The notes beneath the pieces were generated by a model that was not told the DNA's origin, made no database searches, and worked only from the letters and a program-made list of their open reading frames with translations. Below, piece by piece: positions 13,608 through 28,802 of a stretch of 47,175 nt of DNA; the stretch's first letter is position 1; each line of letters starts with the position of its first letter. The stretch is taken from NCBI GenBank assembly GCA_904390925.1, contig CAJFMB010000010.1, forward strand, positions 1-47,175, read 5' to 3'. The translations under genes and the position numbers were made by a program. This DNA comes from an uncultured Subdoligranulum sp. (GTDB lineage: Bacteria; Bacillota; Clostridia; Oscillospirales; Ruminococcaceae).

Positions 13608-13649
13608 GGCGGGGTTCCTCCTTCCGGGTGGGCAAACGGATTTGATTTC

Positions 13650-13678
13650 AGCATACACGATTTTTCAGGGAAATGCAA
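13650..13678 (-). promoter_or_regulatory. Promoter of the two-component/ABC operon
   Basis: Minus strand TTGCAT (13678-13673), 17-base spacer, TATGCT (13655-13650). The start site would be near 13643, about 36 bases before the response-regulator ATG. The -35 box abuts the terminator of the GH43 gene. Confidence 0.65.
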
Positions 13679-13747: not shown

Positions 13748-15190
13748 TCACGCCAGGGTAAAAGCGTAAAAATCCATGGTGCCGGTGCCCTCATACCGGA
13801 AAAACAGCGGTAGGGTCCCGGCCGGCAGGGTCAGCGGCGCGGTGAACTGCCGGGGCTGGCCGTCCAGCCTGACCGGGACCTCCGCCGCCAGCTGTGTCAT
13901 GGCCTGGTCGCAGAACACCTGCACGGTGCCCTCCCCCCTGCCGCCGGCTTCCAGGGTGATCTCGCCGGAACCGTCAAAGGCAAAATATTTGAATCCGGCC
14001 GTGGCGCCGCTGCGCATGTTGGCGATGTACTGATCCCCGTCCCCGTTGCGGTCCCTGCCGGTCTGGGTGAAGTAGGGGTGCTCCCGGAAGGTACGGCGGG
14101 GATGGGGCCCGTCATACCGGCCGGTCCCCTGCCCGCTCCACAGATTGCAGGCGATACGTGCCTCGTACCGGCCATGTCCCGACAGCGGGCCGGCATTCAG
14201 CCCGCAGGAGGTGACCTCCGCCTGGAGAAAGTGCCCGTCATCGGTGCGGACCAGCTTTTCGGCACAGGCCTGGCGGGAATAGCCGTGGCGGTTGGTGTGG
14301 CGGTGGTAAAAAATGTACCACTGACCGTTCAGGCAGAGCATGCCGCCGTGGGTATTGCCCAGATAGTTGGCGGCGTGGCTCTCGTCGGTATTGCCCATGT
14401 ACAGATCCCCCAGATCCACCAGCGTCCCGCCGAAACGGAATCCACCGTCCGGGCGGTCGGACACCGCATAGCAGAGCTCGTGGTTATTTTTGGAAGAATA
14501 GACAAACAGATACCGGTCACCGTCCTTGCGGATGGAGCTGGCCTCGAAAAATTCATGGCCCGGGAAGGAGCCGGGGCCGGTTTTGGGGAAGATCACCTTG
14601 GGTTCGGTGCGGATGGTTTTCATGTCGGGTTCCAGTTCCACCACCACACCGCCGTCGTTTTTCAGCGCATGGAAGCCGCTGGCCACCGCCGGGCAAGGGG
14701 TATAAAATCCCGAATAGAGATACACCCGGCCGTCGTCATCCACCAACACGCCGGGGTCAAAGGGAAACTGGTCCCCCTTGCGCCGTCCCCAGATGGTGCC
14801 GTCGGGATAGCTGACCCAGCCGTAGAACTGATACTGCCCGGCCGGGGTATCACAGACCGCCACACCGATCATGCCGTAAAAATCAAAGGCATAGTACAGG
14901 TAATACCGCCCATCTGTGCCCCGGACCACATCCGGCGCAAACAGCAGCCGGAGGCCCAACGGATTTTTCGGGTCCTGATTTTTGCGGAAAATCACGCCCT
15001 CGCAGCGCCAGTCGGTCAGATTATTCACCGGTGCCGACCAGCAGACATAATCGTTCATACAGAAGATCGGCGCATTGAACCGGTCATGGGAGCCATAGAT
15101 ATAGACCCGGTCCCCGAATATCCGGGGTTCGGCGTCCGGAATATACTCCCAGGACGGAAGATAAGGATTGAATGCCTGCCGCTTTTCCAT
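13748..15190 (-). CDS. GH43-family glycosidase with C-terminal carbohydrate-binding-like domain
   Basis: A 480-residue enzyme with no signal peptide, so cytoplasmic. The N-terminal five-bladed beta-propeller of glycoside hydrolase family 43 has all three expected acidic residues: D19 (general base, PDAEPR), D146 (FDPGVLVDDDG) and E216 (HEFFEASSI, proton donor). Family members are beta-xylosidases or alpha-L-arabinofuranosidases acting on xylan or arabinan oligosaccharides. The C-terminal 130 residues look like a beta-sandwich carbohydrate-binding domain (CBM6-like: RDRNGDGDQYIANM, aromatic-rich strands). The ATG at 15190 follows AAAGGGA. It has its own promoter and terminator, so it is monocistronic. 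Exact sugar specificity cannot be read. Confidence 0.85.
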   Translation of the reverse strand: MEKRQAFNPYLPSWEYIPDAEPRIFGDRVYIYGSHDRFNAPIFCMNDYVCWSAPVNNLTDWRCEGVIFRKNQDPKNPLGLRLLFAPDVVRGTDGRYYLYYAFDFYGMIGVAVCDTPAGQYQFYGWVSYPDGTIWGRRKGDQFPFDPGVLVDDDGRVYLYSGFYTPCPAVASGFHALKNDGGVVVELEPDMKTIRTEPKVIFPKTGPGSFPGHEFFEASSIRKDGDRYLFVYSSKNNHELCYAVSDRPDGGFRFGGTLVDLGDLYMGNTDESHAANYLGNTHGGMLCLNGQWYIFYHRHTNRHGYSRQACAEKLVRTDDGHFLQAEVTSCGLNAGPLSGHGRYEARIACNLWSGQGTGRYDGPHPRRTFREHPYFTQTGRDRNGDGDQYIANMRSGATAGFKYFAFDGSGEITLEAGGRGEGTVQVFCDQAMTQLAAEVPVRLDGQPRQFTAPLTLPAGTLPLFFRYEGTGTMDFYAFTLA

Positions 15191-15362: not shown

Positions 15363-16118
15363 TCAGAAGTGGCGGACTTCCACCCCTGCGGCGGGCAGGG
15401 CTGCCTGAAGGTTCTTGACAAAGGCCAGCGCCTTGGGGCCGTCCCCGTGGACACAGACCGAATCCGCCTGCAGCTGGATAACGCTGCCGTCGTTGGCAAC
15501 GACGGTGCCTTCCCTGGCCATGCGCAGAACCCGGGCAATGGCCTGATCCTCGTCCTCGATCATGGCGCCGGGCTGCCCCCGGGGCACCAGGGTGCCGTCA
15601 GGCTGGTAGCCCCGGTCAGCAAAGACCTCGCTGGCCACCGGCAGGCCGATGGCATTGGCGGCGGCAACCATCTCGCTGCCGGCAAGGGCCAGCAGAATGG
15701 CGCCGGGGGCCGACTGCTGGACCGCCTGGCAGATGGCATCGGCCAGTGCCCGGTCCTTGGCAGCCATGTTATACAGTGCCCCATGGGGTTTGACATGGTG
15801 GAGCGGAACCCCCGCTGCCTGGCAGAAGGCATACAGCGCCCCCACCTGGTAGGCCACATAATCGGCGGCCTGCCGGGGTGTGATGGCCATTTTGCGGCGA
15901 CCGAAGCCCACCAGGTCAGGCAGGCCGGGATGGGCACCCACCTGCACGCCGTACTGTTTGCAGAGTTCCACGCTGCGGCGCATGATGGATGGGTCCCCGG
16001 CATGGAACCCGCAGGCAATGTTGGTGGAAGTGATGCAGGGCAGAATCTGTTCGTCGCAGCCGATGGTGTAGGCGCCGAAGCTTTCGCCCAGATCGCAGTT
16101 GAGATCAATGGATGGCAT
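15363..16118 (-). CDS. pxpA: 5-oxoprolinase subunit A (LamB/YcsF family)
   Basis: A 251-residue cytoplasmic protein of the LamB/YcsF family, now known as PxpA. With PxpB and PxpC it forms the prokaryotic ATP-dependent 5-oxoprolinase that opens 5-oxo-L-proline to L-glutamate. Family motifs are DLNCDLGESFGAY at the N-terminus, NIACGFHAGDP, VGAHPGLPDL and HHVKPHGALYN. The ATG at 16118 has AAAGGAGG upstream and lies 12 bases after the DUF1445 gene. It is the last gene of the operon; all three 5-oxoprolinase subunits are present, with a DUF1445 gene inserted between pxpC and pxpA. Confidence 0.93.
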   Translation of the reverse strand: MPSIDLNCDLGESFGAYTIGCDEQILPCITSTNIACGFHAGDPSIMRRSVELCKQYGVQVGAHPGLPDLVGFGRRKMAITPRQAADYVAYQVGALYAFCQAAGVPLHHVKPHGALYNMAAKDRALADAICQAVQQSAPGAILLALAGSEMVAAANAIGLPVASEVFADRGYQPDGTLVPRGQPGAMIEDEDQAIARVLRMAREGTVVANDGSVIQLQADSVCVHGDGPKALAFVKNLQAALPAAGVEVRHF

Positions 16119-16130
16119 GGTTTGCCTCCT

Positions 16131-16934
16131 TTACAGTTTGAGAGCCACGTTTTTCACGTCGGTGATCATCATGTGGCCCGGTGCATGGGTGATGCAGAAG
16201 GACGGCCGGGACGCCATGACCGCCGCCTGGGGGGTGACGCCGCAGGGCCAGAAGACCGGGACTTCCCACTCCCGGATAGTGACCGGGTCGCCGTAATCGG
16301 GATGGGCAAGGTCATGGATGCCGATGGCCTCGGGGAAGCCGATCTGAATCGGCATGCCGTGGACCCGGGGCATCTCGGCCGTCACTGCAACAGCAGCGGG
16401 CACCAGCCGGTGCGGGATGGGCCGCATGCTGACCACCATGTTGCCGTGGAAGATGCCGGCCGGCGCACAGGGAATGTTGGTGTTGTACATGGGCACGTTG
16501 ACGCCTTCCTCAATCTGCCGCACCGGGATGCCGGCCTCCAGCAGTGCACTTTCAAAGGAGAAACTGCACCCGATCAGAAAGCTGACCAGATCTCCCCTTG
16601 TCTCAAAATACTCACTCACATCGGTGGGTTCGGCGACCAGCTCGCCGTGGTCATAGACCCGGTAGCGGGGAATGTCGGTGGCAATGTCACTGCCGGGGGC
16701 GAACTGGGCAAAGGTCCGTTCGCCGGCGTCCGCCACCTCCAGCAGCGGGCAGGCCTTGGGGTTGCGCTGGCAGAACAGCAGAAAGTCCCAGGCAAACGCT
16801 TTGGGAAGCACCACCAGATTGCCCTGGGCATATCCGGCACAGAAACCGGTGGTGGGGCCGGTGATCTCGCCCCGGCGGATGGCAGCGCGGGCTGCGGCGG
16901 GGGCAAGCACCGAAGGATCAAACGAGGTATTCAC
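16131..16934 (-). CDS. DUF1445 protein, D-glutamate cyclase / hydro-lyase family (YcsI-like)
   Basis: A 267-residue protein of the DUF1445/UPF0317 family, often labelled putative hydro-lyase; B. subtilis YcsI is a member. This family forms the N-terminal part of mammalian mitochondrial D-glutamate cyclase (DGLUCY), which converts D-glutamate to 5-oxo-D-proline. Recognisable segments are the ARAAIRRGEITGPTTGFC start, GCSFSFE, NIPCAP-GIFHGNMVVSMRP, and the closing FWPCGVTPQAAVM...ITHAPGHM. The ATG overlaps the pxpC stop (ATGA) and pxpA follows after 12 bases. The C-terminal DGLUCY-like half is encoded separately at 18797-19867 in the same operon. Activity on D-glutamate is inferred from homology and context only. 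Confidence 0.9.
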   Translation of the reverse strand: MNTSFDPSVLAPAAARAAIRRGEITGPTTGFCAGYAQGNLVVLPKAFAWDFLLFCQRNPKACPLLEVADAGERTFAQFAPGSDIATDIPRYRVYDHGELVAEPTDVSEYFETRGDLVSFLIGCSFSFESALLEAGIPVRQIEEGVNVPMYNTNIPCAPAGIFHGNMVVSMRPIPHRLVPAAVAVTAEMPRVHGMPIQIGFPEAIGIHDLAHPDYGDPVTIREWEVPVFWPCGVTPQAAVMASRPSFCITHAPGHMMITDVKNVALKL

Positions 16935-17974
16935 AGAAACAGCCTCCCTGCATGAATGAATTTGGGTGTGGTGCGGGCAGCCAGGCGGTCCGCCACCTGT
17001 TTGAGGCAGGCGGCCTGGGTCCGGGCTGCCGCCACCGCCCGGGCGGGGTCGGTGAGGGTGAAGGCCACCTGCTGCCCCGGGCGCAGCTGTGCCAATGCCG
17101 GAAGATCCGCACTGATGACGGTGGCAATTTTGGCATAGCCGCCGGTGGTCTGGTGGTCGGCCAGCATGACAATGGGCTGGCCGCTGCTGGAAACCTGCAC
17201 CGAGCCTTCCACAATGCCGTCCGACAGAATATCCGACCCGTGTACCGTCTCGATGACAGGGCCCTGCAGCTTGCAGGCCATGCGGTTACAGTCGGCGGTC
17301 AGCTGATAGCTGCCGTGGGTGAAGGTTTGCTGTCCGGCGGGGGTGAAGGCCTCCCACTGGGGGCCCGGCACTGCCCGCAGAAGCGGCAGACGCCGGTTTT
17401 GTTCCCACCGCCACAGACGCGCCCCGGTGCAGGCGGCGGCGTCGCCCAGCGGGTGGTCCGCCTTGCAGCGGTGAATGGTTTTCCACCAGGCGGTGGCGCT
17501 GTCCCCGGGCATGGCGACGGGCAGCACATCCCCCTTGCAGAGTCTGCGACCCTGGAAGCCGCCCAGGTGACAGGCAAGGTCGGTGGAGCGGCTGCGGCGC
17601 ACCACCGGCACCAGAATTCCGCCCCACACCGCCAGGTAGCTGCGCAGGCCCTCCTTTGCCATGCCGATTTTCAGCACACTGCCGGCCGGCGCAAACAGCG
17701 GTGCAAAAAACGGCACCGGCTGGCCATCCAGCTGGGCAGGTGTCTCGGCACCGGTCAGGGCAAAGACCGTCGCGATCTCAAACCGCAGTTCCGGGCCGCG
17801 CAGGGTGGTTTCCAGAACCGCGTCTCCGGCAGCGTTGCCCACCAGCAGGTTGGCAAGCCGGGCGGAATAGCTGTCGGCGGCGCCGCAGCTGCGGTAGCCG
17901 TCGGCTGCAGAACCGCTGCGGCCCAGGTCCTGCACGATGGTCAGCGGGCCGGGGTCCAGAATGCAGATGCTCAT
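16931..17974 (-). CDS. pxpC: 5-oxoprolinase subunit C (biotin-dependent carboxyltransferase-like, KipA family)
   Basis: A 347-residue cytoplasmic protein of the KipA / AHS2 family (PxpC). It works with PxpB and PxpA in ATP-dependent 5-oxoproline hydrolysis. Hallmarks are DPGPLTIVQDLGRSG at the start, YRSCGAADSYSARLAN, and the C-terminal VSSSGQPIVMLADHQTTGGYAKIATV. It overlaps pxpB and the DUF1445 gene by 4 bases each (ATGA), so the three are translationally coupled. Older annotations name this family KipA, an antagonist of the sporulation kinase inhibitor, but the operon context here favours the metabolic role. Confidence 0.92.
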   Translation of the reverse strand: MSICILDPGPLTIVQDLGRSGSAADGYRSCGAADSYSARLANLLVGNAAGDAVLETTLRGPELRFEIATVFALTGAETPAQLDGQPVPFFAPLFAPAGSVLKIGMAKEGLRSYLAVWGGILVPVVRRSRSTDLACHLGGFQGRRLCKGDVLPVAMPGDSATAWWKTIHRCKADHPLGDAAACTGARLWRWEQNRRLPLLRAVPGPQWEAFTPAGQQTFTHGSYQLTADCNRMACKLQGPVIETVHGSDILSDGIVEGSVQVSSSGQPIVMLADHQTTGGYAKIATVISADLPALAQLRPGQQVAFTLTDPARAVAAARTQAACLKQVADRLAARTTPKFIHAGRLFL

Positions 17975-18657
17975 GGATTGGCCTCCTTCTCGGCCAGCGC
18001 AGCGAACTGCTCCGGCGTGATGGCCGAAAACTTGATCCGGTCGCCTGCCGCATAGAGGGGCGGACGCTCCGGGTCAAACAGTTTCAGCGGTGTGCGCCCG
18101 ATGAGCTGCCAGCCACCGGGGGATTCCACCGGATAGACACCGGTCTGTTCCCCGCCGATGCCCACCGATCCCGCCGGGATGCTGGTGCGGGGATTTTGCA
18201 GCCGGGGGGTGACCAGTGCCGGGTCCAGCCCACCCAGATAGGGAAATCCGGGCAGGAAGCCCAGCATATAGATGCGGTACTCCCGGCCGGTGTGGCGTCG
18301 GATGACCTCCTTCTCACTCAGGCCGGCATGCTCCGCCACAAAGGAGAGGTCGGGGCCATATTCCCCGCCATAGCAGACCGGAATGGTGACAAGCCGCCCC
18401 GCACTGGTATCCGGCGGGGGCAGATGCTCCGCCAGGCGGGAAATCGCCTGCGCCATCTGGTCATAATCGGTGACAAGCGGGTCATACCGCACAAGCAGCG
18501 AGGCAAACGCCGGGACAGTCTCGCCGGCGCCGGGGATTTTCGCCCCCTGCACCGCTGTGTTCAGGGCAGAAACCTGTGCGCCGATCTCCTCCGAGATCTG
18601 CTGTTCAAACACGGCCAGAATGCCGGTGTCCCCCACCGGGGCAAGTCGGACAGACAT
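17971..18657 (-). CDS. pxpB: 5-oxoprolinase subunit B (KipI/AHS1 family)
   Basis: A 228-residue cytoplasmic protein of the KipI/AHS1 family (PxpB), partner of PxpC. It shows GDTGILAVFEQQI near the N-terminus and the strong family signature GFLPGFPYLGGLD, followed by the PR-x(6)-RTSIPAGSVGI...YPVESPGGWQLIGRTPLKLFD segment. The ATG at 18657 has GGGAGG upstream; a 51-codon longer open frame is rejected on ribosome site and family length. It begins 139 bases after the DUF4392 gene. That gap has a GCCGCC/GGGCGGC hairpin (about 18693-18713) without a T-run and no clear promoter. Confidence 0.92.
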   Translation of the reverse strand: MSVRLAPVGDTGILAVFEQQISEEIGAQVSALNTAVQGAKIPGAGETVPAFASLLVRYDPLVTDYDQMAQAISRLAEHLPPPDTSAGRLVTIPVCYGGEYGPDLSFVAEHAGLSEKEVIRRHTGREYRIYMLGFLPGFPYLGGLDPALVTPRLQNPRTSIPAGSVGIGGEQTGVYPVESPGGWQLIGRTPLKLFDPERPPLYAAGDRIKFSAITPEQFAALAEKEANP

Positions 18658-18796
18658 GCCATCGGCCTCCCTTCGAAAAGTTGTTCCGTTCCGCCGCCCG
18701 CAAAACAGGCGGCAGATACACAAACCGGCGGGCGCCTGTCCTTCGCCAGAATGGCAGGAAAGCCGGGCGACGCGCCGGAAACTGTATGACAGGGAT

Positions 18797-19867
18797 TTAT
18801 TTGCCCTCAAAGAAGCCTTTGTCTAGAACCGGGCCAAACCAACGGTCGCTCTCATGGGAGCGGGTCAGCGCGTAGTTGGTGCACTGGCGCATCAGGCTGA
18901 CGATGCCCACATTCATGTGGGTGCTGAACCCGTCGATGCCGGGCAGCAGCGAACCGGTCATGCCGATAAAGCCGTTGCGGGATGCAACACGCATCACTTC
19001 CGACTCCATGTCCTCCCGCTGCATCACCTCGATGTCCCGCCGCAGATACGCCAGGGCGGCCATCAGTCCGTAGCAGCCCCAGTCAGAGCAGGTGGCGGTG
19101 ATGATGCTGTCGGCAGCGGTGGCACTGAGGATACCACCGCCGCAGCCGCATCTGCATTCGCCCGGTGCGGTGAGGGGCACATAGCGCTTGATGTGGTCGG
19201 CGATGGTGGCCATGCCGATCTCGTTGCCCAGGTCGCCGATGGCAATGTTGGGCACGCCCTTTTCTTTCAGCAGCTGCCACAGCGCATCGGTCTTGGCCTG
19301 CAGCTCGGTCACATCCTGGCTGAGAGCGTTGTGATAAACGCCCAGCGCGTTGGCGCCGGCAGCCTCAATGGCCACAACCGCGGCGGGATTGGCCTGCTCG
19401 TACAGCATCTGTGCCTGAGAGGGTGCCTCGGTCTTGTCCTTGGTGAATGCCACAACACCCATGCTCAGCGGCAGTTCCTTGACGGTGGCAATGTCCTCGT
19501 AGCAGTGCAGACCAACCACGGCGGCACAGCGGCGGATGGCCTCCACGCTGTCCTGGGGGCAGACCAGCACCGGCTTGGCGCCAAAGGCGCGGACCAGTGC
19601 CCGGGCCAGCAGGATGGAACCGACGGTACCGTCCATCTCGGGGACCTTGTGGGGCAAAAGCACAAAGCCCACCAGGATCAGCACCACATCCCCGGGCTTG
19701 ACGGCGTCACACAGCACCTTGGCCGAGTGCAGGGTCAGCGGCTCACCGGTGTATTTGCGGGCACCGTCGTACAGGATATGGCAGACGCCATAGCCGCGGG
19801 GGTCCAGCGTCATCAGGGCATCCAGGTTTTCGGCAACATTGCGCTCTTCCAGTTCATCCCGTGTCAT
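18797..19867 (-). CDS. DUF4392 protein, C-terminal-half homologue of D-glutamate cyclase
   Basis: A 356-residue soluble protein of the DUF4392 family, which forms the C-terminal part of mammalian D-glutamate cyclase (DGLUCY). Visible family features are EMDGTVGS (residues 77-84, cf. TDGPxGA), GDLGNEIGM (211-219, cf. GDGGNEIGMG) and a cysteine/glycine-rich segment CRCGCGGG (238-245). It has a nucleotide-binding-like alternation of strands and helices but no standard kinase motif. The ATG at 19867 has GAGGTG upstream and lies 10 bases after the aminotransferase gene. With the DUF1445 gene three genes downstream it reconstitutes both halves of DGLUCY. Whether both proteins are needed for activity is unknown. 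Confidence 0.85.
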   Translation of the reverse strand: MTRDELEERNVAENLDALMTLDPRGYGVCHILYDGARKYTGEPLTLHSAKVLCDAVKPGDVVLILVGFVLLPHKVPEMDGTVGSILLARALVRAFGAKPVLVCPQDSVEAIRRCAAVVGLHCYEDIATVKELPLSMGVVAFTKDKTEAPSQAQMLYEQANPAAVVAIEAAGANALGVYHNALSQDVTELQAKTDALWQLLKEKGVPNIAIGDLGNEIGMATIADHIKRYVPLTAPGECRCGCGGGILSATAADSIITATCSDWGCYGLMAALAYLRRDIEVMQREDMESEVMRVASRNGFIGMTGSLLPGIDGFSTHMNVGIVSLMRQCTNYALTRSHESDRWFGPVLDKGFFEGK

Positions 19868-19877
19868 GGCGCTCACC

Positions 19878-20741
19878 TCAATCCAGCACCGACGTCTTGC
19901 CGGTATAATCGTAGTACTCCTGCAGAACCGCATCCTGAATGGCCTTCAGGGTCTCGGGGTCCTTGCCGCCGGCCGGCTTGCCGTCCAGCTCGCAGGCATG
20001 CAGGCAGAAGTTGGAGGAAGAGGTGACGATGATCTCGTCCGCATCCCGCAGCTGATCCAGGGTGAAGGGCTTTTCCATCACCTGGATGCCCAGACGGTAG
20101 CAGGCCTGGATCATATGGGTCTTGGCGATGCCGCGCAGAATCAGCTCGTCATTGGGGTGGGAGTAGAAAACGCCGTCTTTCAGGATGGAAACGTTGGAGT
20201 GTGCGCACTCGGTGACAATGCCGTCGCGGTGGAAAACCGTCTCCTGCACGCCCAGATGCTTGGCTTCCTCGGCTGCCACAACGCTGGGGATCAGGTTCAG
20301 CGTCTTGATGTTGCAGTGATAGAAGCGGGTATCCGGCCGGGTGACCAGCTTGATGGGCTTGTCGGGATCGTTCAGTTGGTTGGGGCGGATCATGACCCAC
20401 AGCTTTCCGGTGATGTCATCATCATAGACATGGTTGCGGTCATTGACGCCGCGGGTAACCTGCCAGTAGACAAAATGGGTGCTGCCTTCCACCCGGGCCA
20501 GCAAGCCGGTGAGCAGGCTTCCCAGCTCGGTCTTGCCCATCGGGATGTGGATGTCCAGTGCCTTGGCGCTGGAATAGAACCGATCCAGATGGTCCTGCAG
20601 CAGATACACTTTGCCGTTGGCGCCGACCGTGGCGTCATAGACACCGTCACCAAAGAAGTGAACACGGTCATTGAACGGGATTTTGACTTCCTCCGGCGTG
20701 CCATATACGCCGTCATAATAGGCAAGTTCCTTGAGCAGCAT
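19878..20741 (-). CDS. D-amino-acid aminotransferase-like class IV PLP enzyme
   Basis: A 287-residue cytoplasmic fold-type IV aminotransferase. K146 in NIKTLNL is the expected PLP lysine, and E178 in VTECAHSNV is in the place of the conserved cofactor-contacting glutamate. NIK(S/T)LN and the Y-W-Q-V-T-R-G-V segment are characteristic of D-amino-acid (D-alanine) transaminases rather than branched-chain enzymes. Such enzymes exchange D-alanine and 2-oxoglutarate for pyruvate and D-glutamate. The ATG at 20741 has AGGGGAGGG upstream. Placed before the D-glutamate-cyclase-like genes, it could feed or drain the D-glutamate pool. A branched-chain or 4-amino-4-deoxychorismate lyase role is less likely. 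Confidence 0.85.
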   Translation of the reverse strand: MLLKELAYYDGVYGTPEEVKIPFNDRVHFFGDGVYDATVGANGKVYLLQDHLDRFYSSAKALDIHIPMGKTELGSLLTGLLARVEGSTHFVYWQVTRGVNDRNHVYDDDITGKLWVMIRPNQLNDPDKPIKLVTRPDTRFYHCNIKTLNLIPSVVAAEEAKHLGVQETVFHRDGIVTECAHSNVSILKDGVFYSHPNDELILRGIAKTHMIQACYRLGIQVMEKPFTLDQLRDADEIIVTSSSNFCLHACELDGKPAGGKDPETLKAIQDAVLQEYYDYTGKTSVLD

Positions 20742-20784
20742 GGGTTTTCCCTCCCCTTAATTTTGCGACAGAGTTCTGCCCCTG

Positions 20785-21432
20785 TCAGACGTTCGGTTTT
20801 TCCACCCCGAACCGCAGATACATGTACTCCTCGATCAGGGACACACAGTTGTCGAGGCCAAGGACCGCGGTATCCAGGCAGAGATCATAGTTGGACAGAT
20901 CCTTCCACCGTTTGCCGGTGTGATAGGTATAGTAATCGTTGCGGTACTTGTCGAGCCGGTCAATGTAGCGCTTGGCCTCCCCGCGGGAAATGCCCTGCCG
21001 GGTCATCTCCCGCTGGATGCGGTCGGTGTAGGATGCGTCAAGAAAAACCGACAGCACCCTGGGCTTATCCTTCAGCACAAAGTCGGCGGCACGGCCGACG
21101 CAGACATAGCTTTCCTGGTCCAGCAGCCGCCGGAGCACCTTGGCCTGGTGGGCAAACAGGGCCCGGTCGGACAGGAAGTTGCCGCTTTCCGGCGGGATGT
21201 CCCTGCCGTCGTAGACACTGCGGGATACCTTGTACAGCAGCCGTTTGCGGGTATCCTCGTCCGCCTGGGCAAAGATTGTCTCGTTGATGCCGCTGTCCTC
21301 GCTGGCCAGACGCAGCAGCTTCTGGTCGTAAAAGTCGATGCCGTAATCGGCTGCAATCTTGCGGCCGATGTAGCTGCCGCCGCCGCTTCCGCAGGTGCGG
21401 GTGATGGCAATGGCGAAATACTCCTGGGACAT
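20785..21432 (-). CDS. Cytidylate kinase-like family protein
   Basis: A 215-residue protein of the cytidylate-kinase-like family. The N-terminal P-loop segment ITRTCGSGGGSYIGRKIA resembles the family pattern ITI(S/T)RxxGSGGxxIG, and is followed by the IDFYDQKLL strand. Later, SVFLDASYTDRIQREM with R-rich helices fits the NMP-kinase lid region. It is not a canonical Cmk (too divergent, no rpsA neighbour). The ATG at 21432 has GAGGAGGGAG upstream, 11 bases after livF. Its place between transporter and pathway genes suggests a kinase or regulator for this pathway, but the substrate is unknown. Confidence 0.75.
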   Translation of the reverse strand: MSQEYFAIAITRTCGSGGGSYIGRKIAADYGIDFYDQKLLRLASEDSGINETIFAQADEDTRKRLLYKVSRSVYDGRDIPPESGNFLSDRALFAHQAKVLRRLLDQESYVCVGRAADFVLKDKPRVLSVFLDASYTDRIQREMTRQGISRGEAKRYIDRLDKYRNDYYTYHTGKRWKDLSNYDLCLDTAVLGLDNCVSLIEEYMYLRFGVEKPNV

Positions 21433-21443
21433 GGTCTCCCTCC

Positions 21444-22142
21444 TCACTGGCCCAGATAGGCCTTTTTGACCCGTTCATCATTGAGCAGGGCTTTGGCATC
21501 CCCCTCAATGGTAATATGGCCGGTCTCCAGCACGTAGGCACGGTCCGAGATGGACAGGGCCATCTGTGCGTTCTGTTCCACCAGCAGGATGGTGATGCCC
21601 TGCTTGTTGACCTCCTGGATAATGTCAAAGATCTCCTGCACCAGCAGGGGCGACAGGCCCATCGACGGCTCATCCATCAGGATCATCTTGGGCTTTGCCA
21701 TCAGGGCACGGCCCACGGCAAGCATCTGCTGCTCGCCGCCGGACAGGGTGCCGGCCAGCTGACGGCGGCGTTCTTTCAGCCGGGGGAACCGGTCGTAGAC
21801 CGATACCATGGTGTCGGACATACCCGCCGGATCGGCATAGGCGCCCATCTCCAGGTTTTCCTCCACCGTCATTTCAGGGAAAATATGACGGCCTTCCGGC
21901 ACATGGGCCAGTTTCAGGTTGATGATCTTGCTGGGTTCGGTTTTGCGCAAGTCATGTCCGTCAAAGAGGATGCTGCCGGAGGCAGCCTTCTCCAGGCCGG
22001 TGATGGTGCGCAGCGTGGTGGTTTTGCCGGCGCCGTTGGCACCGATCAGCGAGACGATCTCGCCGCTGTTGACGGTCAGCGAAATGCCGTCCAGCGCCTG
22101 CACAGCGCCGTAGTTGACTTTCAGGTCCTTTACCTCAAGCAT
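21444..22142 (-). CDS. livF: Branched-chain/hydrophobic amino-acid ABC transporter ATPase (LivF type)
   Basis: A 232-residue ATPase of the HAAT importer family. Walker A is GANGAGKTTT, the ABC signature LSGGEQQM, and Walker B ILMDEPSMGLSP; the last is characteristic of LivF. PEGRHIFPEMTVEENLEMGAY is the typical Q-loop region. The ATG at 22142 has AAAGGTGG upstream and overlaps the livG stop by 8 bases. It forms a heterodimer with LivG. Gene symbol is by family; the imported substrate need not be leucine, and the downstream genes hint at a glutamate- or 5-oxoproline-related compound. Confidence 0.9.
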   Translation of the reverse strand: MLEVKDLKVNYGAVQALDGISLTVNSGEIVSLIGANGAGKTTTLRTITGLEKAASGSILFDGHDLRKTEPSKIINLKLAHVPEGRHIFPEMTVEENLEMGAYADPAGMSDTMVSVYDRFPRLKERRRQLAGTLSGGEQQMLAVGRALMAKPKMILMDEPSMGLSPLLVQEIFDIIQEVNKQGITILLVEQNAQMALSISDRAYVLETGHITIEGDAKALLNDERVKKAYLGQ

Positions 22143-22950
22143 CGTTGGCCACCTTCTTTCCTGCTGCTTTGCCCAGATACGCCTCAATGACTCTGGGGTT
22201 GTTTGCCACTTCGGCGGGGGTACCGGAGGCAATGGTGGTGCCGAAGTCCAGAACCTGGATGCGCTCGCAGATCTTCATGACCAGGCTCATATCATGTTCA
22301 ATCAGCAATACCGAAATTCTGAAGGTATCGCGGATATAGTCGATGATCTCCAGCAGTTCCTCGGTCTCGGTGGGGTTCATGCCGGCGGCCGGCTCATCCA
22401 GAAGCAGCAGCTTCATGTCGGTGGCCAGGGCGCGGGCAATCTCCAGGCGGCGCTGCTGGCCGTAGGGCAGGTTGTCGGCCTCCAGATTTTCCTTGCCGGA
22501 CAGATGCACTACATCCAGCAGTTCCATTGCCCGCTGGGTGATGGCGGCCTCCTCCTTCCAGAACTTGGGGGTGCGGAAGATGGCCTGGGGCAGCCCGTAG
22601 GTCAGGTGCTCCGTCATGGCGGCCTTGACGTTGTCCAGAACCGTCATCTTTTTGAAGAGGCGGATGTTCTGGAAGGTACGGGCAATGCCCGCATGGACGA
22701 TCTGATGGGTCTTTTTGCCGTTCATCCGCTCACCGCAGAGGTAGAAGGAGCCCTCGGTGGGCTTGTAGACGCCGGTGATCAGGTTGAAGACGGTGGTCTT
22801 GCCGGCGCCGTTGGGGCCGATCAGACCAACCAATTCGGATTCACCGATCTCAATGTTGAAGTTATCCACGGCTTTCAGGCCGCCGAACTGAATGCCCAGG
22901 TTCTGCGCTTTCAGGATGGGGACCTTTTTCTCGGTTGTCTTTTCCGCCAT
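22135..22950 (-). CDS. livG: Branched-chain/hydrophobic amino-acid ABC transporter ATPase (LivG type)
   Basis: A 271-residue ATPase. It shows Walker A GPNGAGKTT, the LivG-type FNLITGVYKPTEG and GIARTFQNIRLFKKMTVLDNV segments, signature LPYGQQRRLEIARAL, and Walker B LLLDEPAAGMNP. These are diagnostic of LivG as opposed to LivF. The ATG at 22950 lies 8 bases after AAAGGGGAG; an in-frame GTG three codons earlier sits too close to that site. It begins 5 bases before the stop codon region of livM and overlaps livF by 8 bases. The C-terminus has a short lysine-rich tail. Confidence 0.91.
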   Translation of the reverse strand: MAEKTTEKKVPILKAQNLGIQFGGLKAVDNFNIEIGESELVGLIGPNGAGKTTVFNLITGVYKPTEGSFYLCGERMNGKKTHQIVHAGIARTFQNIRLFKKMTVLDNVKAAMTEHLTYGLPQAIFRTPKFWKEEAAITQRAMELLDVVHLSGKENLEADNLPYGQQRRLEIARALATDMKLLLLDEPAAGMNPTETEELLEIIDYIRDTFRISVLLIEHDMSLVMKICERIQVLDFGTTIASGTPAEVANNPRVIEAYLGKAAGKKVANDA

Positions 22951-22955
22951 CGTGG

Positions 22956-23999
22956 TCACTCCCCTTTCTTTTTGGCAGTCGCAGCGGCTGCTTTCGGCTT
23001 TTTGGCCGTTGCCCGGCTGAGCTTCTGGGGCAGCGTGGGCAGGGCTTTCAGGGCACGGGTGAGAGAGAACTCCCAGTGACCGAAGATTCCGCCGGGACGG
23101 AAGAGCATGACCAGCACCAGAACCACCGAGTAGCCCAGCATGCGGTAGGTGGAGAACTGACGCATCAGCTCAGGCAGGGCGGACAGGAAGGCGGCACCGA
23201 TGACAGAGCCGGTGAGAGAACCGGTGCCGCCGATGATGACTTCGGACAGCAGCTCGGCAGAGTAGTTGAAGTTGAAGTTGGTGGGGATCATGGCGGTCAT
23301 GTAATGGGCATACAGAGCGCCACCGACCCCGGCAAAGAAGGAGGAAATGGCGAAGGTCATGACCTTATAGAAGGTAACGTTGATGCCGGAGGCCTCAGCT
23401 GCGATGTAATCCTCGCGGATGGCCTGCACGGTGCGGCCGAAACGGCTGCGGACGAACAGGAACATGATGGTGACGCAGACGACCATGATCCAGAAGGTCC
23501 GGCCGAAAGTGGAAAGCTTGAGGATGCCGCTCATGGTACGGCCGCCACCGGTGATTTCCAGGTTGCAGAAGACCACGCGGATGATCTCGGCGAACGCCAT
23601 GGTGACGATGGCCAGGTAGTCGCCCCTCAGCCGCAGCGCCGGAATGCCGACCAGCATGCCGGCCAGGCCGGCCACAATACCGCCGGCCAGCACCGCCACA
23701 ATCAGCAGCGCCAGGTCCGACAGGCCCTTGCCTGCCAGAGCATTGGAAACAATGGCGGCGGTGTAGGCGCCCACCGAAACAAAGCCGGCATGGCCCAGGG
23801 AGAACTCGCCCATGAAGCCGACCACCAGGTTCAGGGACGCCACCATCACGATGGTGTAGCAGGCGGTTGTGCAGACGCCTTCCACGTAGGTGGTGGAATC
23901 ACCGAAGCCGTTGAAGGCAAACAGCGCGGACAGAATGGCAAAAACCACCGCCACACCGATGAAGTTCAACAGGTAACTGAACTTGCGTTGTTTTGTCAT
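22956..23999 (-). CDS. livM: Branched-chain/hydrophobic amino-acid ABC transporter permease (LivM type)
   Basis: A 347-residue membrane permease. Multiple hydrophobic helices run through the protein; the family-specific LNLVVGFMGEFSLGHAGFVSVGAYTAA segment and GDYLAIVTMAFAEIIRV loop are present, as is GGTGSLTGSVIGA. The last 30 residues are a lysine/alanine-rich cytoplasmic tail (AKKPKAAAATAKKKGE). The ATG at 23999 has AAGGTG 6 bases upstream; three earlier codons are possible. It starts 10 bases after the livH stop. It pairs with LivH to form the membrane channel. Confidence 0.92.
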   Translation of the reverse strand: MTKQRKFSYLLNFIGVAVVFAILSALFAFNGFGDSTTYVEGVCTTACYTIVMVASLNLVVGFMGEFSLGHAGFVSVGAYTAAIVSNALAGKGLSDLALLIVAVLAGGIVAGLAGMLVGIPALRLRGDYLAIVTMAFAEIIRVVFCNLEITGGGRTMSGILKLSTFGRTFWIMVVCVTIMFLFVRSRFGRTVQAIREDYIAAEASGINVTFYKVMTFAISSFFAGVGGALYAHYMTAMIPTNFNFNYSAELLSEVIIGGTGSLTGSVIGAAFLSALPELMRQFSTYRMLGYSVVLVLVMLFRPGGIFGHWEFSLTRALKALPTLPQKLSRATAKKPKAAAATAKKKGE

Positions 24000-24009
24000 T
24001 TGGATCACC

Positions 24010-24900
24010 TTACACTTTCTCGCCGGTGTTGCGGCCCAGGATGCCGGAAGGTTTGACCAGCAGGATCACGATCAGGGTACCGTAAGTAACAGCCTCGTAC
24101 CAGCCGGGAGCAAACAGACGGACGAACACTTCGATCAGGCCGATGAGCACGCCGCCCAGCATAGCGCCGGGGATGACGCCGATGCCGCCGAGCACCGCGG
24201 CGATGAAGGCTTTCATGCCCATCGTGGTGCCCATGTTATTGGTGACACGGGGATAGGTGGTGCAGTACATCAGAGCGGCAACGGCTGCCAGAGCGGAACC
24301 AATGGCAAAGGTGACGGTGATGATCTTGTTGACATTGATGCCGGCCAGGGTGGAAGCATCCCGGTCCTGGGGAACGGCGCGCATCGCCTTGCCAAGTTTG
24401 GTCTTTTTGACGAAGAGCTGCAGCGCCAGCATGATGACCAGGCCGATGACGATGGTGAGCACCACGTTGAGGGAGATGGTCACGCCGGCCACCGTTACCG
24501 ACGGCAGCGAAAAAATGGCGGAAACGTTGTGCGGGCGGGAGCCGAACAGCACCATGGCCAGGTTCTGCAGGAAGATGCTCATGGCCAGGGCGGTGATCAG
24601 GGCGGACATGGGGCCCGCCTTGCGCACCGGCCGGTACGCGAAGATTTCCACCAGCACGCCCACAATGGCGCAGACCACAATAGCGGCGATCACTGCCAGC
24701 CAGGCCGGCATGCCGGCATTGACCATCAGCGGTATAGTGTAAAACAGGGTGTAGGCACCGATCATGATGAAATCACCGTGGGCGAAGTTGATCATGCGGA
24801 TGATGCCGTAGACCATTGTGTAGCCCAAGGCGATCAACGCATAGGTGGCGCCCAGGTTCAGTCCGTTGATGATAGACTGAAAAAACAGTGAGAAGGTCAT
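24010..24900 (-). CDS. livH: Branched-chain/hydrophobic amino-acid ABC transporter permease (LivH type)
   Basis: A 296-residue membrane permease. The N-terminal INGLNLGATYALIALGYTMVYGIIRMINFAHGDF segment is the LivH hallmark; the VLGGIGVIPGAMLGG segment near the C-terminus is also typical. The ATG at 24900 has AAAGGAG upstream; a 19-codon extension to 24957 reads through a hairpin and was rejected. It is separated from livK by 236 bases with strong secondary structure, so it is probably transcribed at a lower level than the binding protein. Confidence 0.93.
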   Translation of the reverse strand: MTFSLFFQSIINGLNLGATYALIALGYTMVYGIIRMINFAHGDFIMIGAYTLFYTIPLMVNAGMPAWLAVIAAIVVCAIVGVLVEIFAYRPVRKAGPMSALITALAMSIFLQNLAMVLFGSRPHNVSAIFSLPSVTVAGVTISLNVVLTIVIGLVIMLALQLFVKKTKLGKAMRAVPQDRDASTLAGINVNKIITVTFAIGSALAAVAALMYCTTYPRVTNNMGTTMGMKAFIAAVLGGIGVIPGAMLGGVLIGLIEVFVRLFAPGWYEAVTYGTLIVILLVKPSGILGRNTGEKV

Positions 24901-24986
24901 GCTCCATTCTCCTTTCAGGGTGGGTGTGATGGCGGGAAGTGCTGTCTCCCCCATCACCCAGAGCTTGCGGGCTGGGTGCCAGGGAA

Positions 24987-25068
24987 AACAGCATTTCCCA
25001 AAACGTACGGCGGCGCATGGCCGGCAGATGTAGCCAAACCATGCACCGCCGTTTTGGAAAAAGCTGTT
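24987..25068 (-). repeat. Long imperfect hairpin between livK and livH
   Basis: AACAGCATTTCCCAAAACG...CGGCGGCGCATGG at the left pairs with CCATGCACCGCCGTTTTGG...AAGCTGTT at the right, giving an imperfect stem of about 30 bp with an asymmetric bulge and an 18-base loop. A second short pairing (GATGG/CCATC, 24923-24957) sits next to the livH ribosome site. It is probably an mRNA-processing or partial-termination element that sets the livK:livH ratio. A REP-like dispersed repeat is possible, but no second copy is visible here. Confidence 0.6.
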
Positions 25069-25093
25069 ATTGTATGGGACAGGATTTCAGTTC

Positions 25094-25125
25094 AAAGCAC
25101 CGGTATGGGGGACGCCTGTGCTTTT
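25094..25125 (-). terminator. Hairpin just after livK, weak terminator
   Basis: AAAGCACCGG and CCTGTGCTTT pair with one mismatch about 12 bases after the livK stop. There is no proper T-run downstream, so it may instead protect the 3' end of a livK mRNA. Confidence 0.4.
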
Positions 25126-25136
25126 ATCGGAAATGA

Positions 25137-26387
25137 TCAGGCATCACGCTTGGAAACAACCGATCCGTCGGGGCCAAGGGTCTCGTACCACTGGACCTGG
25201 CCATCCACGAAGGAGTTGACAACGATCTGCTTGGCAGGGTCGCCGTTCTCATCCAGCATGAAGGTGCCGCCGACACCGGTGAAGGTCATGCCGGTCATAC
25301 CCTTGACCAGGCTGGCAGTGTCAGTACCGCCGCCGTTCTGGGCTGCCTGGTACAGCATGTAGATGGCATCGTAGTACAGGGATGCGCAGGCGTTCAGGCT
25401 TTCAGTGCCGTACTTTTCGGTGTACTTGGTAACGAAGTTGACAACCGCGTCGGAAGTATCCTCGCTGGAGTAGTGGTTGGTGAAGTAGCAGTTATCGAAC
25501 TGGGTCTCCAGGCCGGTGGTATCCGAGCTGTCCCAGCCGTCGCCGCCCATGATGGCACCGGTGAAGCCGGCGCTGCGGGCCTGGTTGACAACCAGAGGCA
25601 CGGTATCCTGGAAGGCGGGATAATACAGGAACTCAGCGCCGGAGGCCACAACCTTGGACAGCTGAGAGGTGAAGTCGGTGTCGGTGGTGACGCACTGTTC
25701 GGTGTCCACAACCTCAATGCCCAGGGCCTCGCAGTTCTCAATGAAGGCATCCTTCAGGCCGTTGGAGTAGTCATCGTCGTTGGCGTACATGACAGCGACC
25801 TTGCTGTAACCCTGGCTCTGAACGAACAGAGCAGCCATCTTGCCCTGATACGGATCGATGAAGCAGTCACGGAAAACGGTGGGACGATCCTTGGTCACGT
25901 CCACGTTGGTGGCGCCGGTGGCCAGCAGCAACATATTATCGGTAGCGGCCTGGGCTGCCATGGGAAGCGTGACGCTGGAGAAGAAGCTGCCGACCACGGC
26001 ATCCGGATCATCCGCCATCACGCGGTTGTATGCGTTCATCGCCTGCTTGGCGTCCTGTGCATCGTCGGCAATCTCGCCGCCGTTGACGATCTCGACCGTG
26101 TAGGGGCCGCCGCTGGCATTGATCTCCTCCACGGCCATGTTAATGGCGTTCTGAGCGCCCTCGCCGTAGATTGCGGAGCCGCCGGTCAGGGGGCCGACAA
26201 CACCGATACGAATAACATTGTCTTCCTCACCGGCAGAGGCGGTATCCCCGGTAGCAGCGCTGCTGGAGTCACCGGAAGTAGTATCTGCAGTGCCGCCGCC
26301 CTGTGCGGAGGAGCTGCAGCCGGCCAGAAGGCTGACGCTCATGGCGCCGGCCAGAGCCAGAGACAAAACTTGGTTGCGCTTTTTCAT
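25137..26387 (-). CDS. livK: Amino-acid ABC transporter solute-binding lipoprotein (LivK type)
   Basis: A 416-residue extracellular lipoprotein. The signal peptide ends in lipobox LLAGC with C24 as the lipid-modified residue, followed by a Ser/Gly/Thr-rich linker of about 40 residues. The mature domain is a type I periplasmic-binding fold of the LivJ/LivK (peripla_BP_6) family, starting IRIGVVGPLTGGSAIYGEG. The ATG at 26387 has AAGAGGGA upstream. It is first in the 12-gene operon, with a 5' leader of about 220 bases carrying two tandem terminators. Substrate is not readable; the operon points to D-glutamate, 5-oxoproline, or a related amino acid or amide rather than necessarily leucine. Confidence 0.92.
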   Translation of the reverse strand: MKKRNQVLSLALAGAMSVSLLAGCSSSAQGGGTADTTSGDSSSAATGDTASAGEEDNVIRIGVVGPLTGGSAIYGEGAQNAINMAVEEINASGGPYTVEIVNGGEIADDAQDAKQAMNAYNRVMADDPDAVVGSFFSSVTLPMAAQAATDNMLLLATGATNVDVTKDRPTVFRDCFIDPYQGKMAALFVQSQGYSKVAVMYANDDDYSNGLKDAFIENCEALGIEVVDTEQCVTTDTDFTSQLSKVVASGAEFLYYPAFQDTVPLVVNQARSAGFTGAIMGGDGWDSSDTTGLETQFDNCYFTNHYSSEDTSDAVVNFVTKYTEKYGTESLNACASLYYDAIYMLYQAAQNGGGTDTASLVKGMTGMTFTGVGGTFMLDENGDPAKQIVVNSFVDGQVQWYETLGPDGSVVSKRDA

Positions 26388-27027: not shown

Positions 27028-27187
27028 GGATCGCGGGAGAGACCGCCGCTGGCGGAGCCGAAGGGGACGCAGAAACTCTCAGGCAAAAGGACCGGGTCCG
27101 GACGGAACTCTGGAAAGTCAATGGGGACGCCGAAGAGGCAACCCGCCCACCGGGTGGGGAATCTTTCAGGTATCTTGTACAGAGGCA
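27028..27187 (+). promoter_or_regulatory. Tandem glycine riboswitch
   Basis: Two adjacent glycine aptamers. The first shows GCGGGAGAGACCGC, GGCGGAGCCGAAGGGG, AAACTCTCAGGCAAAAGGACC and GACGGAACTCTGGA, which match the conserved glycine aptamer. The second (from about 27120) has GGGGACGCCGAAGAGG, AATCTTTCAGGTA and the closing ACAGAGG. The closing strand of the second aptamer overlaps the first bases of the terminator stem at 27181. Glycine binding would thus block the terminator and switch the operon on, as in the known gcvT riboswitch of Bacillus subtilis. Confidence 0.95.
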
Positions 27188-27231
27188 CGGCAAAGCGCAA
27201 AAACCGCGTTTTGCCGTGCCTCTGTTTTTTT
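27181..27231 (+). terminator. Riboswitch-controlled terminator before gcvT
   Basis: AGAGGCACGGCAAA pairs perfectly with TTTGCCGTGCCTCT, followed by G and seven T. The 5' arm shares its first bases with the P1 stem of the second glycine aptamer, so the two structures exclude each other. Confidence 0.93.
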
Positions 27232-27273
27232 GCGGTGTTCCCCTTGCACCGCCTCCAGGAAAGGATGATCGAT

Positions 27274-28359
27274 ATGGAAAAGAAAACGCCGTTGTACCAG
27301 ACCCATCTGGACGAAGGCGGCAAGATGGTCCCCTTTGCCGGATATCTGCTGCCGGTACAGTACCCCACCGGGGTGATTGCCGAACACATGGCCGTGCGCA
27401 CGGCCTGCGGACTGTTTGATGTCTCCCACATGGGCGAGATTGTCTTCCGGGGCGAGGGAGCGTTGGCGACCCTCAACCATCTGCTGACCAACGATTTCAC
27501 CAATATGACCATCGGCCGGGTCCGCTATTCTGTGATGTGTCTGCCGGACGGCGGCACGGTGGATGACCTGGTGGTCTGCAAATTTGGCGAGGACTGCTAC
27601 CTTGTGGTGGTCAACGCCGCCAACCGGGAAAAGGACTACGCCCACATGGCAGCCAATCTGCTGCCGGATACCGAGATCGAGGATATCTCCGATCAGGTGG
27701 CACAGCTGGCCCTGCAGGGTCCCAATGCCAAGGAGATTCTAGCTCACCTGATTGACCCGGAATTGCTGCCCCAGAAATACTACACCGCCGTGCGGGAAGT
27801 GATTGTGGCAGGCATCCCCTGCATGATCTCCCGTACCGGCTATACCGGTGAGTTCGGCTACGAGCTGTACACCGCCGCGGACGACGGTCCCAAGCTGTGG
27901 AAGCTGCTGCGCCAGGTGGGTGCCGAGCACGGGCTGATCCCCTGCGGTCTGGGTGCCCGCGACACTCTCCGTCTGGAGGCTGCCATGCCGCTGTACGGCC
28001 ACGAGATGAACGAGACCGTCACCCCGCTGGAAGCCGGGCTGAATTTTGCCGTCAAGCTGCAGAAGCCGGAATTCATCGGCCGGGATGCGCTGCTGGCGGC
28101 CGGTGAGCCCAAGCGGGTCCGGGTTGGCCTGAAAGCCACCGGCCGCGGCATCCTGCGGGAAGAACAGACCGTCTACCTGGGTGACACTGTCATCGGCACC
28201 ACCACCTCCGGCACCTTTGCCCCCTACCTGAAACAGGCCATCGCCATGGCACTGGTGGACGCAGACCATACCGCCCCCGGCACCGCCGTGGAGGTGGATG
28301 TGCGCGGTCGCCGCGTGCCTGCCGAGATTGTTCCGCTGCCGTTTTACAAGCGGGGATAA
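27274..28359 (+). CDS. gcvT: Glycine cleavage system T protein (aminomethyltransferase)
   Basis: A 361-residue cytoplasmic enzyme that releases ammonia from the aminomethyl group on lipoylated GcvH and transfers the methylene to tetrahydrofolate. Family landmarks include PFAGYLLPVQYPTGVIAEHMAV, the LFDVSHMGE stretch, ISRTGYTGEFGYEL, and LGARDTLRLEAAMPLYGHEM. Length is normal. The ATG at 27274 follows AGGAAAGGA; a 51-codon upstream extension runs through the terminator and riboswitch and was rejected. It is the first gene of the operon and is controlled by the glycine riboswitch. gcvH follows after 54 bases. Confidence 0.96.
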   Translation: MEKKTPLYQTHLDEGGKMVPFAGYLLPVQYPTGVIAEHMAVRTACGLFDVSHMGEIVFRGEGALATLNHLLTNDFTNMTIGRVRYSVMCLPDGGTVDDLVVCKFGEDCYLVVVNAANREKDYAHMAANLLPDTEIEDISDQVAQLALQGPNAKEILAHLIDPELLPQKYYTAVREVIVAGIPCMISRTGYTGEFGYELYTAADDGPKLWKLLRQVGAEHGLIPCGLGARDTLRLEAAMPLYGHEMNETVTPLEAGLNFAVKLQKPEFIGRDALLAAGEPKRVRVGLKATGRGILREEQTVYLGDTVIGTTTSGTFAPYLKQAIAMALVDADHTAPGTAVEVDVRGRRVPAEIVPLPFYKRG

Positions 28360-28413
28360 CTGTTCCCGTCCGCAATCATCCTATTTTTAATATATGACCA
28401 GGAGGAAATTACC

Positions 28414-28797
28414 ATGAACGTTCCCGAGACTTTGAAATACACCAAATCCCATGAATGGCTCAAGGAAGAGGCTGACGGCAGCTATACCATGGGCCTGACC
28501 GACTACGCCCAGAAGCAGCTGGGTGACATTGTCTTTGTCAACCTGCCCATGGAGGGCGACCCGGCCACTGCCGGCGAGGCGCTGGCCGATGTGGAGTCGG
28601 TCAAGGCGGTGGCGGACGTGTTCAGCCCGGTCACCGGCACGGTGGCTGCCGTGAATGAGGATCTGATGGATGAACCCCAGCAGATCAACCAGGCCCCCTA
28701 CGAGGCCTGGATCGCCAAGATCAGTGACGTGACCGACACCGAGGAGCTGCTGACCGCCGCAGAGTATGCAGACTTCTGCGAGAAAGCCAAGGGGTGA
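28414..28797 (+). CDS. gcvH: Glycine cleavage system H protein
   Basis: A 127-residue lipoyl carrier that shuttles the aminomethyl intermediate between GcvP, GcvT and Lpd. K64 in ADVESVKAV is the lipoylated lysine. The opening KYTKSHEWL and [19 protein letters not shown] are family hallmarks. The ATG at 28414 has AGGAGGAAATTACC upstream, a very strong ribosome site fitting a carrier needed in excess. Lipoylation can be supplied by the LplA ligase encoded three genes downstream. Confidence 0.97.
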
Positions 28798-28802
28798 AGA
28801 AT

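Follow-up and report, generated by a model that had tools for sequence, protein, structure and literature searches.

What does a cluster that joins an amino acid importer to 5-oxoprolinase and to both domain families of D-glutamate cyclase do in an uncultured Subdoligranulum sp.? The cluster comprises twelve minus-strand genes at positions 15363–26387 of the window, as we call the whole analysed stretch of 47,175 nucleotides (GenBank assembly GCA_904390925.1, contig CAJFMB010000010.1), which lies on contig C10 of a draft genome of 2.14 Mb with a completeness of 85%. The gene order is livK, livH, livM, livG, livF, PF13189, DAAT, DUF4392, pxpB, pxpC, DUF1445, and pxpA; this arrangement, proposed earlier from the DNA letters (the sequence-only reading), was confirmed by the open reading frames (ORFs), their translations, and Pfam and NCBIfam matches. 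We suggest, with a probability of roughly 0.55, that the conserved module within the cluster moves D-glutamate, together with D-alanine, via 5-oxoproline to ordinary glutamate.

The core of the module consists of six genes. The D-amino-acid transaminase (DAAT; 19878–20741) matched PF01063 with 133.2 bits, and its best solved match was 3daa (164 bits); its score with TIGR01121 (211.3 bits) was under the cut-off of 277.45. The DUF4392 protein (18797–19867; PF14336, 279.7 bits) belongs to the family of the C-terminal domain of D-glutamate cyclase, and the DUF1445 protein (16131–16934; PF07286, 229.6 bits; NF003969, 402.6 bits, cut-off 324) to that of the N-terminal domain. The 5-oxoprolinase subunits are encoded by pxpB (17971–18657, ORF open to 18810; PF02682, 267.8 bits; TIGR00370, 209 bits, cut-off 145.6), pxpC (16931–17974; PF02626, 293.4 bits; TIGR00724, 274 bits, cut-off 230), and pxpA (15363–16118; PF03746, 353.9 bits; NF003814, 370.7 bits, cut-off 226). 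Thus, PxpA, PxpB, and PxpC are all present together, with PxpC under the equivalog cut-off of NF045499 (246.5 bits vs. 500), and the two cyclase families occur as separate ORFs rather than as a single fused polypeptide. The ORFs were trimmed to likely starts by reading the translations (livH at 24900, livF at 22142, DUF4392 at 19867, and pxpB at 18657). With these starts, nine of the eleven gene joints overlap or are at most 43 bases apart; the larger gaps lie between livK and livH (about 180–240 bases) and between DUF4392 and pxpB (about 140 bases). Upstream of livK, no promoter on the minus strand was detected in a consensus scan; the one promoter-like match just before DAAT (20788–20760) is uninformative given a total of 5 matches vs. 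3.9 in shuffled sequences. The operon status is therefore based on spacing and conservation, and the promoter scan carries no weight.

Conservation was studied in named genomes using the best 80 of 525 DUF4392 relatives, a sample that leans towards the window's own branch. Among the matches listed, the closest named relative of the window DUF4392 protein was from Candidatus Gemmiger stercorigallinarum (79%), which makes Gemmiger the probable genus. Any pxp gene was found in 47 of the 80 loci, all three in 39, DUF1445 in 45, DAAT in 42, and the alanine racemase gene alr in 20. The six-gene core was complete in 31 loci of Clostridia and spirochaetes, at DUF4392 identities of about 40–80%, and alr was added to it in 16 of them; Caproicibacter fermentans (L131) is an example of a cultured bacterium with the core. 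The order DAAT-DUF4392-pxpB-pxpC-DUF1445-pxpA, as in the window, was kept in 28 of the 31 core loci; L116, L117, and L120, Clostridium tyrobutyricum among them, had DAAT-DUF4392-DUF1445-pxpA, with alr in two of the three, followed by pxpB-pxpC. Spirochaete loci with core genes in window order were complete in L154 and L155 and cut by contig ends in L130 and L153. DAAT adjoined DUF4392 on the same strand, within 400 bases, in 44 of the 45 loci holding both, and alr was present in 16 of the 27 loci that had pxpA, DAAT, and more than 1.5 kb beyond pxpA. Clustering of neighbouring genes in 52 loci, with one member of each cluster scanned with Pfam, likewise returned alanine racemase (c1), together with a Lrp/AsnC regulator in 6 loci (c4). 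All twelve genes recurred in two congeners (L023 and L024) and in seven of the 80 loci (L105, L106, L108, L109, L110, L113, and L118), including [Clostridium] aerotolerans and Mobilisporobacter, which argues that the locus is more than a chance assembly; L112, at a contig end, lacked pxpA only.

Conservation was also analysed in genomes of the same family and phylum. Of 297 family genomes, 7 had DUF4392, 12 had DUF1445 (G134 under the cut-off), and 6 had both, vs. 0.3 expected. Three of these six, namely, the window genome, G054, and G220, shared all twelve genes and their order. In G165, about 5 kb separated DUF4392 from a DUF1445-pxp cluster of the opposite strand, and DAAT was absent; in G012 and G130 the two families were on separate contigs. 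Two more congeneric genomes (G151 and G274) had neither family, and one family genome (G030) had DUF4392 only. Among 398 phylum genomes, DUF4392 was present in 43 (42 over the cut-off), DUF1445 in 64, and both in 32, vs. 6.9 expected (Fisher p 2e-20). The pxpA gene, found in 121 of the 398, accompanied DUF1445 in 63 of 64 genomes and DUF4392 in 35 of 43; within the 121 genomes, both families still co-occurred in 31, vs. 18.2 expected (p 2e-7). These p-values treat genomes as independent, which they are not. DUF4392 and DUF1445 lay within 10 kb of each other in 18 of the 43 genomes, 17 of which are sound, G332 being based on a sub-cut-off fragment. Nine of the 40 phylum stretches (L065–L104), namely, L065, L066, L069, L070, L071, L075, L077, L078, and L081, had DUF1445 near DUF4392 and neither pxp genes nor DAAT in the stretch, with pxpA elsewhere in eight of these nine genomes; L074, L076, L080, and L082 contained the core genes and DAAT in shuffled order. 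The linkage of DUF4392, DUF1445, and pxpABC, for which the sequence-only reading had proposed a neighbourhood search, is thus present far beyond this genome.

Residues of DUF4392, DAAT, and DUF1445 were also conserved in alignments that drop short or odd rows (from 122 DUF4392, 48 DAAT, and 113 DUF1445 proteins extracted). The acidic metal residues of TON_0340 (E59, D61, E115, D157, E161, and D246) were kept in 118–119 of 119 DUF4392 proteins. All 47 aligned transaminases had the Tyr, Arg, His, Lys, and Glu residues that match the Bacillus DAAT (3daa) and that we take to be those of its active site. In DUF1445, C123, C231, H192, H250, E128, and E224 were invariant (109/109), and C62 was found in 108 of 109. 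The fold of DUF1445 matched only 2pif and 3db9, both of unknown function, and weakly the NrpR-like MJ0159 (3nek; E 7e-5, TM 0.39); no conclusion on its chemistry was drawn from the fold.

Comparison with loci lacking DUF4392 separated the partners of the two cyclase families. The control comprised 40 DUF1445 loci without DUF4392 in reach, in stretches of 4.9 to 19.9 kb, from the 32 genomes without DUF4392 and from 8 of the 14 with a distant or separate copy; G486, G512, G537, and G635, in which both families are separate or distant, were left out. These controls had pxp genes in 37 cases, DAAT in 0, and alr in 0, and L068, L087, and L093, which likewise come from genomes with the two families apart and are outside the 40, also had pxp genes and neither DAAT nor alr. 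Of the 49 DUF4392 loci with pxp or DUF1445, 44 extended 1.2 kb or more upstream of DUF4392; in 39 of these 44, DAAT occupied that place. Since the controls have pxp genes and no DAAT or alr, while DAAT accompanies DUF4392, DUF1445 is a partner of oxoprolinase, DUF4392 (in the window's branch and in L074, L076, L080, and L082) is a partner of D-amino-acid enzymes, and both also partner each other.

In the mouse, a fusion of DUF1445 and DUF4392 is the D-glutamate cyclase that converts D-glutamate to 5-oxo-D-proline (sections of PMC5339696), and a passage of PMC5132392 also notes the fusion of the two domains in animals. The mammalian enzyme (9030617O03Rik/C14orf159, GLUCM, EC 4.2.1.48) has the same two domains, and the metal acids of the DUF4392 fold are kept here; in the window, however, the domains are encoded by two genes that flank pxpB and pxpC and are linked to those of an oxoprolinase and a transaminase. 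No bacterial fusion was found, as judged by length only: 119 of the 122 DUF4392 proteins had 240–450 residues, too short for both full domains, and the remaining three had 236, 490, and 723. The frame of 723 residues belongs to L168 (Rhodobacteraceae), which, like L184 (Enhydrobacter) and the phylum genome locus L099, has two to three DUF4392 matches close together. The sequence-only reading described the two proteins as the parts of the mammalian cyclase. The domains are indeed the same; in bacteria, however, they do not necessarily make up a single enzyme, because DUF1445 often accompanies pxpABC in the absence of DUF4392 (32 of 64 phylum genomes, nearly all with adjoining pxp genes). DUF1445 was short, interrupted, or partial beside the pxp genes in L213, L214, L215, and L216, and therefore it may be dispensable or decaying there.

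The many DUF1445-pxp loci without DUF4392 would also fit an ordinary salvage of 5-oxo-L-proline, as in the pxp operon of Bacillus subtilis. DUF4392 would then be a metal-dependent phosphatase or repair enzyme, in line with the weak, Mn-dependent phosphatase activity reported for TON_0340 in a passage of PMC5132392, and DAAT and Alr would be neighbours with a D-amino-acid supply job of their own. We consider this improbable, as DAAT adjoins DUF4392 in nearly all loci that hold both and is missing from every control, and wall synthesis is covered elsewhere in the genome. Namely, MurI, over the TIGR00067 cut-off, is encoded beside ddl, the only other class IV transaminase match is on contig C28, and there are two alr genes, each 73–76% similar to the alr behind pxpA in L105. 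Wall synthesis is therefore independent of the operon, and supply of wall D-glutamate as its main purpose was rejected. An amino acid racemase over the NCBIfam cut-off for cysteate racemase (CuyB; 205 vs. 190 bits) was also found in this genome, on contig C11 (L225, 1450–2190).

The outline D-alanine/D-glutamate to 5-oxoproline to glutamate is likely, and its steps, with their substrates, directions, and handedness, are predicted from gene content, partners, and residues. DAAT and Alr link D-glutamate, D-alanine, and L-alanine, so these three would be interconverted. DUF4392, likely a Mn/Mg metalloenzyme, would turn D-glutamate into 5-oxo-D-proline, and the closure would pull the reversible transamination forward. 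5-Oxoproline would also be the target of DUF1445, which in the simplest case would assist the closure, in the manner of the animal fusion, or else would convert the product to the L form. PxpABC, which reportedly opens 5-oxoproline with ATP (a finding attributed to Niehaus in 2017), would provide the exit step to glutamate. In the window lineage and some others, the LIV-type (leucine, isoleucine, valine) importer would probably bring in an amino acid that feeds the module; the kinase-like gene is present too.

Several observations weigh against this route. A D-glutamate cyclase together with an oxoprolinase would form a futile, ATP-burning cycle if 5-oxo-D-proline were not inverted and both enzymes had the same handedness, and a PxpABC specific for the L form would leave the inversion step missing. 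The plain chain of the sequence-only reading, from D-glutamate over 5-oxo-D-proline to glutamate, omitted handedness and, if PxpABC returned D-glutamate, would waste ATP in this way. The phosphatase activity of TON_0340 also counts against it, as does the fact that the window protein is a more distant relative of TON_0340 (67.8 bits) than those of the second DUF4392 branch (L080, 115 bits; L065, 135 bits). DAAT was missing from 5 of the 44 pxp- or DUF1445-containing loci long enough to show it, and no alr lies behind pxpA in the window. Finally, 31 of the 80 named-genome loci had neither pxp nor DUF1445 near DUF4392, and 11 of the 43 DUF4392 phylum genomes had no DUF1445 at all; thus, DUF4392 also works outside such a module. 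Among these 31 loci, DAAT was present in L119 and L140, both cut by contig ends, and DUF4392 lay beside alr in L141 and L145.

As handedness is the weak joint of the proposed route, the reading ranked next, though tentative, is a reversal on the D side: 5-oxo-D-proline would be taken up or received, PxpABC would produce D-glutamate, DAAT with pyruvate would yield 2-oxoglutarate and D-alanine, and Alr would form L-alanine, with DUF4392 and DUF1445 serving as an overflow valve for D-glutamate. No inversion of 5-oxoproline is needed here, DAAT and Alr are fully explained, and both the low PxpC score (246.5 of 500) and the grouping of operon PxpA proteins mainly in one clade are as a changed specificity predicts; moreover, 5-oxo-D-proline, the main form excreted by people (sections of PMC5339696), is a plausible gut substrate. 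However, a cyclase from the same operon would undo the PxpABC step, and an optional valve would not demand that DUF4392 be kept and refilled from a distant branch. Another, rather doubtful, solution is that DUF1445 epimerizes 5-oxoproline without a cofactor, perhaps as a two-cysteine enzyme, for which C123 and C231 are the invariant candidates. The route would then run one way, driven by ATP, from D-amino acids over D-glutamate, 5-oxo-D-proline, and 5-oxo-L-proline to L-glutamate. If true, it would represent a new glutamate inversion via a lactam and would give a function to B. subtilis YcsI.

The phylogenetic analysis further limits the weight of the locus counts in favour of the proposed D-glutamate route. 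On the PxpA tree (90 rows), the presence of DUF4392 required only 3 label changes, and the operon PxpA proteins formed mostly one clade; therefore, the locus counts are not independent, and the module mainly represents a single lineage, either spread or diverged, so that much of the pattern reflects shared descent. On this basis, the cluster might have been assembled once and merely inherited, its persistence saying little about a joint pathway. We regard this as very unlikely, because the core is kept over the whole range of DUF4392 identities in Clostridia and spirochaetes and in two gene orders, and because DUF4392 has a second, distant source. On the DUF4392 tree (119 rows, 3 of 122 being omitted for length), operon members fell into two deep branches, that of the window and another with L074, L076, L079, L080, and L082. 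A single-clade constraint on the two was rejected (p-AU, approximately unbiased test, 4e-7), with groups that were defined once the tree was known and with some long rows; thus, distant homologues have come to occupy the DUF4392 position on at least two occasions. The constraint that all 47 rows with DAAT form one clade (p-AU 1e-53) was disregarded in favour of this fairer grouping, since rows without DAAT were interleaved, some merely via contig ends. When DUF4392 and DAAT were compared by independent pairs on the PxpA tree, only 3 pairs were obtained, and the test had no power.

Only a minority of loci carry the importer and the kinase-like gene, which are extras outside the conserved core. 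The five importer genes are livK, for a lipoprotein substrate-binding protein (25137–26387; PF13458, 175.1 bits; nearest structures by sequence and fold 3td9, 4gnr, and 4n0q), the permease genes livH (24010–24900, ORF open to 24957; kept in other twelve-gene operons) and livM (22956–24008; translation, position, and conservation in such operons), and the ATP-binding protein genes livG (22135–22959) and livF (21444–22142, ORF open to 22232; translation and conservation). They are followed by the cytidylate-kinase-like gene (20785–21447; PF13189, 166.2 bits), at the equal position in other twelve-gene operons. The NCBIfam Liv models were the best matches, all under their cut-offs (LivK, 123.6/477; LivH, 230/379; LivG, 311/362); the importer is of the same superfamily as LIV branched-chain amino acid importers, and its substrate may differ. 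The nearest structures of LivK bind branched-chain amino acids or, in one case, GABA/alanine, and a distant match (8wch, rank 32) holds L-pyroglutamate; from sequence and fold, no conclusion on the ligand was reached. LivK has an Ala-Thr pair and an acid where leucine-bound 4n0q has them in the alignment, and presumably they play the same roles, which somewhat favours an alpha-amino acid over a lactam as the ligand. Overall, the sequence-only interpretation is partly supported. The linkage it saw as a dedicated full set extends to a DAAT with an intact D-type active site and to alanine racemase, and does not hold for the importer and kinase-like gene as members of the core; its importer for D-glutamate or 5-oxoproline gained no backing, and the LivK pocket aligns with alpha-amino-acid binders.

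Other transporters and enzymes were observed near the two families. A second LIV-oxoprolinase neighbourhood occurs in a different genus of this family, where a LIV-type importer is convergent to pxpB-pxpC-DUF1445 (L029, 5750–10473; L030, 9692–14418), with DUF4392 on another contig; the identity of this importer with that of the window is 38–61% for livFGHM and 34% for livK. TAXI/TRAP-type transporter genes were found in the DUF4392 stretches L090, L091, L095, and L096 (PF16868 in L095, PF06808 in L090) and, with DUF1445 and pxp, in L032; a TAXI protein is reported, in part of PMC12344293, to bind glutamate and, less well, pyroglutamate. A gamma-glutamyltranspeptidase gene (PF01019, scanned in L097 only) occurs without pxp in the DUF4392 stretches L067, L089, L090, L097, and L104, all in one DUF4392 sub-branch except L090, a further tie to glutamyl compounds. 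In the window, a glycoside hydrolase family 43 gene lies directly downstream of pxpA (13748–15190, minus strand), at the place where L105 has alr, followed by a response regulator with a Trans_reg_C domain (12936–13658, minus strand); the divergent plus-strand genes at 27121–32604 were interpreted, from translations only, as a set for glycine cleavage (T, H, P).

Of the known systems, the B. subtilis ycs/kip operon pxpA-ycsG-ycsI-pxpB-pxpC likewise combines PxpABC with a DUF1445 gene (YcsI), and the DUF1445 search matched B. subtilis. To our knowledge, it has no DAAT, Alr, or LIV genes. The DUF4392 search gave no match in 14 named control genomes. Unlike the window, the B. subtilis operon includes the Mn importer YcsG/MntG, according to parts of PMC10448178, which also cites the opening of 5-oxoproline by PxpABC with ATP. 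The pxpTABC genes of Corynebacterium glutamicum comprise those of PxpABC and a further gene, pxpT, all needed for growth on 5-oxo-L-proline; the name PxpT suggests an importer. The main text of that paper mentions no DUF1445, YcsI, or racemase, its sole "cyclase" being adenylate cyclase. One table row of PMC11580864 gives six split and no full-length homologues of human GLUCM in gut bacteria, and that row shows no link to a pathway, transaminase, racemase, or oxoprolinase. These parts of the literature thus already covered the neighbourhood of DUF1445 and pxp in B. subtilis, the fusion in animals with the remark on it, and the six split homologues. What appears to be new is the link to DAAT/Alr and the separation of the two halves by their partners; in open-licence full texts, we found no description of this cluster or of a bacterial route joining D-glutamate and 5-oxo-D-proline.

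D-Glutamate is a general component of bacterial walls, and the cluster points to a putative bacterial route for its use. Its other compound, 5-oxo-D-proline, is mostly the form that people excrete (sections of PMC5339696). Because the cluster gives the little-understood DUF1445 and DUF4392 separate partners, the unsettled matter of how the two domains of the animal D-glutamate cyclase share their work becomes directly testable.

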